Origin: Ignavibacteriae bacterium HGW-Ignavibacteriae-1
GTDB taxonomy: Bacteria; Bacteroidota; Ignavibacteria; Kapaibacteriales; UBA2268
NCBI GenBank assembly: GCA_002839825.1
Contig: PGYU01000009.1
Location: 1-64,000 of the forward strand
Length of the DNA: 64,000 nt
Direction: 5' to 3'
The notes beneath the pieces were generated by a model. It did not search any database. It had not been told where the DNA came from and saw only the letters and a program-made list of their open reading frames with translations. Below are positions 1-10,083 of the stretch, piece after piece; position 1 is the stretch's first letter, and each line of letters starts with the position of its first letter. Made by a program: the position numbers and the translations under genes.

Positions 1-75
1 GGGTTTTGGGGTTTGGGGTTTGGGGTTTGGGGTTTGGGGTTTGGGGTTTGGGGTTTGGGGTTTGGGTTTCGGGGA
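1..75. repeat. GGGGTTT microsatellite (G-tract array)
   Basis: Eight perfect head-to-tail GGGGTTT units run from about position 8 to 63, with degenerate units on both sides. The array touches the left edge of the window, so its true length is unknown. Repeated four-G runs three bases apart could form G-quadruplexes on the + strand. Shorter G-rich text also precedes the hairpin arrays near 5320 and 8690, so this looks like an expanded leader of the same composite repeat. The open frame across it is only a translation of the repeat. Confidence 0.95.
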
Positions 76-85
76 TAGGGGCTTG

Positions 86-238
86 GGATGCTATATCCCG
101 AAGGGATAGAATGTTAATAACCTCGTATGAAATGCGGGGAACGAATAATATTAAACCTATTACAAGCCCGAAGGGCTTGAATATATATAAAAACAAAAAC
201 CTTCCGAAGTTTCCAAAGCTTCGGACACTTTTTTACCT
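86..238. repeat. GAA-loop hairpin repeat array, copy A
   Basis: A string of short hairpins: TATCCC-GAA-GGGATA at 94-108, an imperfect CCtCG/CGgGG hairpin at 121-139, CAAGCCC-GAA-GGGCTTG at 163-179, and a degenerate CTTCCGAAG/CTTCGG hairpin at about 201-226 followed by a T run. The same module order recurs at 5326 and 8690. No gene is visible from here to 484; the stretch 240-484 is AT-rich and I see nothing in it except the AGGAG ribosome-binding site before 485. Confidence 0.8.
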
Positions 239-4795: not shown

Positions 4796-5284
4796 ATGAA
4801 AAAATTAATTATATACATCGCAATATTATTATTTGCAAATGTCGCTATGAGAGCAGATTGGGGATTATTTGAAGCAATGATTTCGACCCAACCGGTTTAT
4901 AATATCACAAATAATTCTGCAATAAGTGGTGGCTCCATCAACTTAACCGAAGATGATAACGATGTCCTCGAAAAAGGAGTCGTATGGTCAACTTCATCAA
5001 TGCCAACAACTTTAGACAACGACGGCAAAACAGAACAAGGCGCAGGACCAACGAGTGGAAATTCAACAATATTTGCATCAAATTTGACGGGTATGCAATT
5101 AGGCACAAAATATTATGTCCGAGCTTACCTTATCACAACGGATGAATCAGAAGCAGAAGTTGCCTTTTACGGTCAGCAGCGCATCTTCACAACCATCCCA
5201 ACTCTCGGCGAATGGGGCTTAATTGCTCTCGGACTTCTTTTCGCAAGCATCGGTGGCTGGTTCCTAATGCGGAGAATGGTGTAA
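4796..5284 (+). CDS. Small exported protein with IPTL-CTERM anchor
   Basis: 162 residues. An N-terminal hydrophobic signal (residues 3-18) is followed by one module of about 100 residues with the GVVWSTSSMPT and YYVRAYLITTD motifs, a pattern typical of Fn3-like repeats in Bacteroidota surface proteins. The C-terminus is IPTLGEWGLIALGLLFASIG (134-153) followed by GWFLMRRMV: motif, transmembrane helix, then basic tail. That is the IPTL-CTERM signature, a PEP-CTERM-like sorting signal normally processed by an exosortase-type enzyme. It lies 18 bp after the beta-helix gene, so the two may work together at the cell surface. No exosortase is in the window. Confidence 0.8.
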   Translation: MKKLIIYIAILLFANVAMRADWGLFEAMISTQPVYNITNNSAISGGSINLTEDDNDVLEKGVVWSTSSMPTTLDNDGKTEQGAGPTSGNSTIFASNLTGMQLGTKYYVRAYLITTDESEAEVAFYGQQRIFTTIPTLGEWGLIALGLLFASIGGWFLMRRMV

Positions 5285-5325: not shown

Positions 5326-5480
5326 TGGGTCTTTACCACGAAGTGGTTAAATATCAATAGCCCCGTATGAAATGCGGGAAACGAAGCATACGCCCCCACT
5401 TACAAGCCCGAATGGCTTGATATTTATAAAAAACACTCAAGCTTCCGAAGGTTCCAAAGCTTCGGAAGCTTGTTTAATAC
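5326..5480. repeat. GAA-loop hairpin repeat array, copy B
   Basis: Same module order as the array at 8690: ACCAC-GAA-GTGGT (5335-5347), CCCCG/CGGGa hairpin with the TATGAAATG loop (5361-5379), AGCCC-GAA-tGGCT (5403-5417), then the long AAGCTTCCGAAG/CTTCGGAAGCTT hairpin (5439-5471). It follows the IPTL-CTERM gene on its 3' side. Confidence 0.85.
5438..5476 (+). terminator. Hairpin terminator candidate closing array B
   Basis: A 12-bp perfect stem, AAGCTTCCGAAG (5439-5450) with CTTCGGAAGCTT (5460-5471), followed by a short weak T stretch. It lies between the convergent IPTL-CTERM gene and the DUF5320 gene and could stop transcription from either side. Confidence 0.5.
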
Positions 5481-8645: not shown

Positions 8646-8689
8646 AAATTATCTGCACCTAAACCAGCCTAAGGGTCAGGATAGTTGGT

Positions 8690-9036
8690 TGGGTTTTTGG
8701 GGCTCGGGGCTTTTACCACGAAGTGGTAAAATATCTATAAAACAATGGATTTAGGTGTGGTCGCTTTTACCACGAAGTGGTTAAATATGAATAACCCCGT
8801 ATGAAATGCGGGGAAAGAAACATCGCGACATTTTCAAACCACGAAGTGGTTAAAGATCTATAACAACAATGGATTTCAGTGTGGGGCTTTTACCACAAAG
8901 TGGTTAAATATTAATAACCCCGTATGAAATGCGGGGTAAGAAATTGCGACATATTCAACAAGCCCGAAGGGCTTGAATATCTCTAATAAAACATACAACC
9001 TTCCGAAGGTTCCAAACCTTCGGAAGGTTTTTTTGT
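8690..9036. repeat. GAA-loop hairpin repeat array, copy C (longest)
   Basis: Two and a half rounds of the modular array. Hairpins: TTTTACCAC-GAA-GTGGTAAAA (8711-8731), ACCAC-GAA-GTGGT (8769-8781), CCCCG-TATGAAATG-CGGGG (8795-8813), ACCAC-GAA-GTGGT (8838-8850), a variant with loop AAA (8892-8904), CCCCG/CGGGG again (8918-8936), CAAGCCC-GAA-GGGCTTG (8959-8975), and the long terminal hairpin (8997-9029). Linkers such as TTAAATATnAATAA and ACAATGGATTT are also repeated. No gene is seen between 8646 and 9204. Confidence 0.9.
8997..9036 (+). terminator. Strong hairpin terminator ending array C
   Basis: A perfect 15-bp stem, AACCTTCCGAAGGTT (8997-9011) with AACCTTCGGAAGGTT (9015-9029), a CCA loop, and a run of seven T. 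Each arm is itself nearly palindromic, so a cruciform is also possible. It would terminate transcription coming from the subtilase gene. Confidence 0.75.
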
Positions 9037-9204
9037 TATATTTTCAAAACCCTTCATTATGTTGTGAAACTTTTCTCGCAAAAGCATCAGAATTATGAAT
9101 TTTGTGTCATAATCATTTTGTTTTGTGCCGTCTTTTTTTATTAGCAAAAAAAGTCGTAATTTAGTAGTGTTAAATGAATTACATAAACATTGCATAGTAA
9201 CAAT

Positions 9205-10083
9205 ATGAACAAAATATTAGAAGCGAAATTTATAGGACCGGACATCAAATTATTCAAAATTGATGCTCCAAAGATTGCCCTCAAGCAGAAAGCCGGGCAA
9301 TTCATTATTCTTAGAATCGCCGAAAATGGCGAACGAATCCCCCTTACCATTGCTGATTCGGACAAAACTGAAGGCTGGATTACATTAATCGTCCAAGGAA
9401 TTGGCGCTACTACAAAGGCGTTAAACCAACTTGAAGCAGGCGATTTTGTCCGCGACCTCGTTGGTCCTCTCGGGCAAGCCTCGCACATCGAAAACTTCGG
9501 AACGGCTGTCAGTATCGGCGGCGGTGTTGGAACAGCGATTGCTTATCCAACTGCAAAGGCACTCAAAGAAGCGGGTAATAAGGTCATTTCGATAATCGGC
9601 GGCAGAAGCAAACAGCACGTGATTCTTGAAAATGAACTTGCAGCAACCTCTGATGAAGTTTATCCTTGTACAGATGACGGTTCCTACGGTTTCCATGGAT
9701 TTGTTACCCAAAAGTTGCAGCAATTGATTGATAGTGGCGAAAAAATTGATTTCGTTCTCGCGATTGGTCCTATTCCGATGATGTCGGCGGTGGCTGAAGT
9801 TACTCGCCCACATGGAATTAAAACAGTTGTGAGCCTCAATCCGGTAATGGTTGATGGCACCGGAATGTGCGGTGGTTGCAGAGCTTACGTTGACGGTAAA
9901 CAAGTTTTCGTCTGTGTTGACGGTCCTGAATTTGACGCACACCTTGTTGATTTCAAAATTTTACAACAACGCAATAGAACATACGGTATCCAAGAACAAG
10001 CCGCTTTGGAAGCACATATGTGTAATATTGATGTAGTTTATAACGAAGAATTAAAAAATAAAAAAATAGCGGAGTCTATATAA
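9205..10083 (+). CDS. NfnA/SudB-like FAD/NAD-binding iron-sulfur oxidoreductase subunit
   Basis: 292 residues from the ATG at 9205; a TTG at 9190 would add five residues and is less likely. An N-terminal FAD-binding barrel (GQFIILR, RIPLTIAD) is followed by an NAD-binding domain (SIGGGVGTAIAYP). A [2Fe-2S] site of the dihydroorotate-dehydrogenase-electron-transfer type lies at Cys222, Cys225 and Cys237 (MCGGCR...FVCVDGPEFD). This family makes the small subunit of electron-bifurcating NfnAB or of sulfide dehydrogenase. The next gene starts directly after its stop and encodes the matching large subunit, so this is a two-gene operon in central redox metabolism. Confidence 0.9.
   Translation: MNKILEAKFIGPDIKLFKIDAPKIALKQKAGQFIILRIAENGERIPLTIADSDKTEGWITLIVQGIGATTKALNQLEAGDFVRDLVGPLGQASHIENFGTAVSIGGGVGTAIAYPTAKALKEAGNKVISIIGGRSKQHVILENELAATSDEVYPCTDDGSYGFHGFVTQKLQQLIDSGEKIDFVLAIGPIPMMSAVAEVTRPHGIKTVVSLNPVMVDGTGMCGGCRAYVDGKQVFVCVDGPEFDAHLVDFKILQQRNRTYGIQEQAALEAHMCNIDVVYNEELKNKKIAESI

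Follow-up and report, generated by a model that had tools for sequence, protein, structure and literature searches.

Three intergenic arrays of very short hairpins, at positions 86-238, 5326-5480 and 8690-9036 of the 64,000-nt stretch of the genome of Ignavibacteriae bacterium HGW-Ignavibacteriae-1 analysed here (the window), raise the question what kind of element they represent and how it came to be repeated. The first-pass annotation had described them as the same ordered modules in varying number and had proposed a non-autonomous mobile element, a family of small structured RNAs or REP-like sites. We consider it probable (roughly seven chances in ten) that the modules belong to a REP-like mobile repeat, non-autonomous and moving as single-stranded DNA, whose units are joined head to tail and whose enzyme is an IS200-like TnpA of subclass 1.2. 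This reading builds on what can be observed directly: a covarying mini-hairpin with a TAR motif on its 3' side, dispersal, an association with subclass 1.2 genes in a defined orientation, and turnover by whole units.

The arrays and their units

All three arrays were found at the places given and lie between listed open reading frames; the neighbouring ORFs are on mixed strands and several arrays come after stop codons. Of the eight GAA hairpins with a perfect 5-bp stem that the + strand of the window contains, seven are in the three arrays, which together make up 655 nt; in 30 single-base shuffles of the window there are 1.7 such hairpins on average. The order of the modules does recur, as the order of repeated units and not of a fixed cassette (short and long units alternate in array 3). 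Each unit closes with a hairpin, hp1, that has a 5-6 bp stem and a GAA loop (rarely AAA or GTAA), with about (T)RAATRTNNATAR behind it. In type A units, which repeat every 66-73 nt, a second hairpin, hp2, stands at the start; it consists of an 8-bp stem and a GAA loop (CCCCGTAT-GAA-ATGCGGGG) and begins directly behind the ATAR of the preceding unit; type B units (51-55 nt) are without hp2. The module that had been written as CCCCG-TATGAAATG-CGGGG actually has a stem of 8 bp, one of them a T.G pair, and its loop is GAA as elsewhere.

As read from the sequence, array 1 (95..190, + strand) contains ATCCC-GAA-GGGAT (95-107), a linker, an 8-bp GAA hairpin (121-139), AGCCC-GAA-GGGCT (165-177) and TGAATATATATAA, with a covariance-model match (see below) at 91-150; an imperfect terminator-like inverted pair, CTTCCGAAG.../...CTTCGG, follows at 201..225. 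Array 2 (+ strand) consists of a first unit end, ACCAC-GAA-GTGGT with TAAATATCAATAG (5335..5360), and an extra type A unit (5361..5429, right edge ±1-2 nt owing to an A run) made up of an 8-bp GAA hairpin, a spacer, AGCCC-GAA-TGGCT and TGATATTTATAA, with a model match at 5331-5390. Array 3 (+ strand, sequence reading) has five unit ends: ACCAC-GAA-GTGGT with AAAATATCTATAA (8715..8740); a type B unit of 54 nt ending in ACCAC-GAA-GTGGT TAAATATGAATAA (8741..8794); a type A unit of 69 nt with CCCCGTAT-GAA-ATGCGGGG, a spacer and ACCAC-GAA-GTGGT TAAAGATCTATAA (8795..8863; model match 8765-8824, across the preceding junction); a second 54-nt type B unit, ending in ACCAC-AAA-GTGGT TAAATATTAATAA (8864..8917); and a type A unit with CCCCGTAT-GAA-ATGCGGGG, a spacer and AGCCC-GAA-GGGCT TGAATATCTCTAATAA (8918..~8989, right edge approximate; model match 8888-8947). 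The modules are thus less uniform than first described: ACCAC-GAA-GTGGT opens arrays 2 and 3, and ATCCC-GAA-GGGAT takes its place in array 1; the arm of the second hairpin is CCTCG in array 1 and CGGGA in array 2, different from the CCCCG/CGGGG noted; and AGCCC-GAA-GGGCT occurs in arrays 1 and 3, array 2 showing AATGGCT.

The terminator-like hairpin that had been counted as a module closes the arrays but also stands alone elsewhere. In array 3 it is the inverted pair ACCTTCCGAAGGTT...AACCTTCGGAAGGT at 8997..9029, a strong terminator-like hairpin by RNA fold, which belongs to a separate dispersed family with matches away from unit matches in both G001 and G002 (two genomes of the same genus as the genome of the window, G000); most of its length is matched at no fewer than nine places in G001, the three unit matches of that genome lying elsewhere. 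Many arrays are preceded, on their own strand, by G-rich, (GGGGTTT)n-like runs (window 1-80 and 8690-8713, and likewise L010, L019, L021, L014 and L013 [C39:8550 and 11450]); such runs are absent from the sequence examined ahead of arrays L009, L017, L018 and L022. Three arrays (array 2 after the gene at 4796-5284, C36 and C39:11450) directly follow the stop of a gene with the near-identical tail TLGEWGLIALGLLFAS..GGWF..MR, which we take to be IPTL-CTERM and which also precedes unit ends in G001.

The stems of the units covary while the loop stays constant. Alignment A1, a set of 17 hand-picked sequences (16 of the 32 listed places plus a C12 stem variant, near-identical rows omitted; the 32 include a single chance match in coding sequence and two places from one truncated copy), has 95.4% of its cells paired and 9 of 14 pairs altered on both sides; none of 500 shuffles reached either value and slid controls were 29-56% paired, while a further measure, of further pair types, was matched by 13 of 500 shuffles. 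With DNA parameters hp1 by itself folds no better on one strand than on the other, and the T.G pair of hp2 on the + strand is A.C on the other, where the fold has 5 pairs versus 8. Since hp1 folds alike on both strands and a 101-nt piece reaches -15.5 (+) versus -14.7 kcal/mol (-), the strand preference derives from hp2 and the loop and motif and not from overall energy.

The unit stems fold as RNA too, and this, together with the strong terminator-like hairpin at the end of array 3 and the position of several arrays behind stop codons, would suit RNA-level elements (small RNAs, or 3'-end processing or termination signals) spread by selection and not as mobile DNA. The stretches scanned gave no Rfam match at gathering score, the terminator is also found without units, and downstream of the G002 transposase gene described below the units are inverted, which makes us regard such an origin as most improbable; the small structured RNAs of the first-pass annotation thus found no positive support, although the units may have a secondary role as RNA. 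Rfam listings below threshold (Acido-Lenti-1, microRNA families and the like) were taken as chance. A CRISPR array was rejected, as the sequence between the hairpins itself recurs from unit to unit.

Dispersal and whole-unit turnover

A search of the whole 3.23-Mb genome, as had been proposed, showed that the strings recur over its length and are not unique to three places: ACCACGAAGTGGT has 19 exact copies in G000 versus 0 for a reversed-pattern control, CCCCGTATGAAATGCGGGG 30 copies at up to 2 mismatches (control 0) and AGCCCGAAGGGCT 9 copies at up to 1 mismatch versus 4, so that the last is not clearly over its control and alone makes a weak marker. The searches made brought up no catalogued repeat family that matches the units. 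The hp1-linker-hp2 junction was turned into a covariance model, which is tied to particular stems; run against 80 genomes at E 0.001, it matched in six of them: G000 (36 matches, including the sequences from which the model was built), G002 (41), G006 (11), G042 (4), G001 (3) and G018 (1). In both G000 and G002 the units are scattered over many distinct places. At two unlinked loci of G002 (L209 and L210; C1:71257 and C2:171377) the same combination is found, namely a hairpin like GGACAGAACAGCGTTCTGTCC, a stretch of CCCACGAATTTATTC and a unit of type A, as if families nest or travel together.

At orthologous sites the arrays differ in the number of complete units, and the junctions fall directly behind ATAR (arrays 2 and 3, and C40/C8). 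The ortholog of array 2 in G001 (C21) has only the first of its unit ends, with TAAATTTCTATAG; behind CTATAG come AAAACATTC and then the terminator. In the window a complete additional type A unit (5361..5429), itself ending in TTTATAA, comes after AATAG. Array 3 has five unit ends in the window versus one in G001. C40 of G000 has two units and C8 of G002, which visual comparison of the upstream sequence indicates to be its ortholog, has three; the two hp2 stems of C40 differ by a compensated pair and the C8 stems have 1-2 mismatches. A clean empty site of a first insertion was not found among the G000 arrays compared with G001 and G002; the C42 and C39:15959 arrays were discarded as candidates, the similarity to G001 and G002 ending at or near the array.

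These differences fit insertion 3' of a TAR target, and unequal recombination could give the same. Units might even multiply only through recombination or replication slippage between direct repeats, with no enzyme and with the transposase gene as one site among many: head-to-tail arrays that differ by whole units also arise from unequal crossing-over, and one C36 copy shows an apparent internal truncation. We hold this to be unlikely, given the many separate places at which units lie in G000 and G002 and the gain of a type A unit in array 2 where G001 has one type B-like end; the distribution of hairpins at transposase genes, discussed in the next section, argues in the same direction.

Gene order between G000 and G001 breaks at arrays (window 8646-9215 versus G001 C21 and C59). 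The protease that precedes array 3 is in G001 followed by a methyltransferase-like gene, which in G000 follows the C39:11624 array, and the gene behind array 3 is preceded in G001 by the sequence that in G000 precedes the C39:8660 array. It looks as if arrays or terminators had acted as recombination points.

TnpA genes of subclass 1.2 and the hairpins that flank them

A search for Y1 transposase genes in 20 relatives recovered a gene in G002 (C5:269571-270017) that lies amid units, with three forward model matches upstream and six inverted ones downstream. The hp2 upstream of this gene reads CCATAGGT-GAA-ACCTATGG and those downstream mostly CCCCGTAT-GAA-ATGCGGGG; the gene is closely framed by the GAA hairpins CAACTCCGAAGGAGTTG, 20 nt ahead of the ATG, and CAACCACGAAGTGGTTG, inverted, 7 nt past the stop. 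The inverted array behind the gene (L079 1939-2482) can be read without a stop for about 148 aa in two frames of the gene strand, and such arrays may therefore be annotated as hypothetical proteins. Of two further subclass 1.2 genes in G002, one (C25) has type B-like units downstream and the other (C14) has copies of CCCACGGTTAAAACCGTGGGCTATG on both sides. The second hairpin family to which the latter belong (CCCACGGTTAAAACCGTGGGCTATG/CCCACGAATAAATTCGTGGGCTATG) flanks the gene at L060 (G002 C14:45264) and also adjoins arrays of G000 (L021, L013 and L214).

The protein encoded at C5 contains YVKNQEEHH and no YxxxNP of class 2, and by this signature it is assigned as a putative IS200-like TnpA of subclass 1.2. 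All four subclass 1.2 proteins scanned scored above the cut-off of the IS200/IS605 model NF033573, with REP_Tyr_transpos below its cut-off, and the PF01797 score of subclass 1.2 proteins is also above cut-off. A profile of 15 proteins matches solved single-strand transposases, including ISHp608 TnpA and structure 2xm3 (presumably ISDra2 TnpA), with E-values of 4e-16 to 2e-9; H55, H57, Y115, Q119, H122 and H123 are invariant in this 15-protein alignment, the members of which were chosen by their HUH and Y---Q--HH signature. The subclass was described in 2018, for Bacteroidetes proteins of about 148 aa with Y---Q--HH and DH[IV]H, and in the passages of PMC6006769 that we draw on it is close to IS200 transposases, generally without terminal secondary structures and entered as 'no' for REP. 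Among the best matches listed in the open-licence PMC literature, no papers were found that tie subclass 1.2 TnpA to repeats.

The genome of the window carries units and no detected subclass 1.2 gene: the 15-protein profile has no match in G000 (98.8% complete, 43 contigs), where the gene could possibly sit in an assembly gap, and recovers a 39-residue piece in G001 and the three genes in G002. Over the 80 genomes the profile matches 33, some weakly or partially, namely five of the six genomes with model matches (one by the G001 piece) versus 28 of the 74 without. As the model recognizes particular stems, little can be read from this co-occurrence in either direction; the 28 genomes are to be expected if stems differ and are not proof.

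The search for a RAYT or TnpA-REP transposase, which the first-pass annotation had recommended, did recover one Y1 gene in G000, with a YIHQNP motif and RAYT-like (L020 2200-3100; C31:25700-26600), and this gene is flanked by a different hairpin, GACTTCCGAAGTC. The flank core CTTCCGAAG of this hairpin resembles the terminator-like hairpin. As the sole Y1 match of the genome, the gene might suggest that the units are REP or BIME sequences of a class 2 RAYT, all the more because REPs are likewise dispersed and intergenic. We judge this very unlikely: its flanks carry GACTTCCGAAGTC and not units, by which this gene was ruled out as the partner, GT[AG]G is missing from the foot of the unit hairpins, and in G002 units surround a subclass 1.2 gene.

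A scan of GTDB species genomes matched at least 589 stretches, at least 575 of which encode relatives of the enzyme, and flanks were analysed for the best 80 of these by similarity to one query, a sample that is mostly Bacteroidota by record title and favours one part of the family. Hairpins with a GTA loop, counted forward upstream and as reverse complement downstream, number 98 in the 47.0 kb within 300 nt of the genes versus 1 in 122.4 kb at a distance of 1.5-2.4 kb; opposite-reading TAC triloops (32 near versus 4 distal) and hairpins of all loops (6.3 versus 1.4 per kb) are also enriched near the genes. Within 120 nt, hairpins with GNA, GTTA or TTTA loops (GNA and TTTA first seen on other loci, GTTA added after viewing the same 80) occur in 79 of 157 flanks and in the opposite orientation in 5 (three of the 160 flanks, shorter than 100 nt, were dropped), as compared to 26 and 22 of 1365 distal windows. 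Of the 77 loci with both flanks, 53 have such a hairpin (24 of these upstream as well as downstream) and 24 have none. The GAA loop, thought to be invariant, is not so in this wider family, where GTA, GTTA, TTTA and GGA are commoner. GNA loops are unusually stable in single-stranded DNA and are favoured for that stability.

The hairpins face the gene from both sides and hence lie on opposite strands. On their 3' side a motif close to GAAATATTGGTAGAAA is conserved (0.94 bits in the best column, 66 loci), and the 5' flank shows no such conservation (at most 0.40 bits); the units of the window fit the wider motif with AAATATGAATAA and AAATATCTATAA. At the 22 loci that have units both upstream and downstream, the two motifs of one gene have an identity of 0.62 versus 0.50 between loci (0/5000 permutations), and motif similarity tracks protein similarity (Mantel r 0.35, 0/2000; 63 of the 66 loci). 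Such concentration and orientation at subclass 1.2 genes, with motifs that follow the relatedness of the proteins, argue against a multiplication by recombination only.

In an earlier set, a flank with two or more hairpins that share the same GNA or TTTA loop was found for 12 of 15 YxxNQxxHH genes and for none of four NP-motif Y1 genes. In G034 the pattern from the units beside the TnpA gene matches 15 places at up to 2 mismatches, eight near the gene on C3 (seven of these in one orientation) and seven on C1, with no match in G000, G001 or G002. The hairpin GGGTGAAACCC stands on both sides of the G018 gene, the upstream copy in an unusual orientation; no matching stem was found in the examined flanks of the G006 and G042 genes.

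A possible mechanism and its relation to known systems

In the mechanism that we propose, TnpA would bind the hairpin on the strand that carries the GNA loop and cut after TAR, and the unit would move as single-stranded DNA and join 3' of another TAR without target duplication. As each unit ends in TAR and so would provide a fresh target at the end of the array, the array would grow head to tail, and the copies in G000 would have been stranded once the enzyme was lost.

The proposal of a mobile element or REP-like sites thus pointed to the right neighbourhood, yet the enzyme found amid units in the sister genome is of subclass 1.2 and not a class 2 RAYT. As in REP/REPIN systems with RAYT (class 2 TnpA-REP, the 'REPtrons'), short dispersed palindromes flank a single low-copy Y1 gene, copies of the repeat lie elsewhere in the genome, and enzyme gene and repeats vary together. 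Unlike there, the enzyme is of class 1 (YxxNQxxHH), the loop and the 3' motif are conserved, the units form head-to-tail arrays, and the GT[AG]G foot is absent, AATAA or AATAG standing before hp2 and varied bases before hp1. With IS200/IS605 and its miniature derivatives the units share an IS200-like class 1 Y1 TnpA, a hairpin about 12 nt ahead of a conserved 3' site and junctions behind a short target-like motif (ATAR, in arrays 2 and 3 and C40/C8), but the end hairpins of IS200/IS605 are on the same strand around the gene and those found here on opposite strands, and the units are gene-less, 51-73 nt long and in tandem arrays, with a low-copy gene. The enzymes agree with subclass 1.2 of PMC6006769 in Y---Q--HH, DH[IV]H, length (about 148 aa) and occurrence in Bacteroidetes, and differ in the hairpins at 53 of 77 loci from the general lack of terminal structures given in those passages. 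Subclass 2.6, according to the same passages, is likewise from Bacteroidetes and has atypical hairpins without GT[AG]G, and the C31 gene has its YIHQNP motif; it is another enzyme class, however, and the hairpins flanking C31 differ from the units. CGTC repeats of Bacteroidetes and Chlorobi, as reported in PMC3733652, have 8-9 bp stems and 4-5 nt loops. The system would work like REP, yet the GT[AG]G foot and the class 2 enzyme were not encountered, and the enzyme is an IS200-family TnpA.

The chances seem to us evenly balanced that subclass 1.2 TnpA gives rise, throughout Bacteroidota, to a class of REP-like systems of its own that has all of the following: a GNA-type mini-hairpin read together with a 3' TAR; insertion sites made by the units themselves, leading to head-to-tail arrays; and arrays that persist after the gene has gone and show where gene order is broken. 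No description of the hairpin units and their pairing with subclass 1.2 was found among the best matches listed in the open-licence PMC literature. The units account for a kind of intergenic repeat without an Rfam family, and they provide a directly testable candidate DNA partner for subclass 1.2 TnpA, an enzyme until now without a known partner that has at least 575 relatives in GTDB species genomes; with this pairing, a third arrangement would stand next to those of insertion sequences and REP systems.
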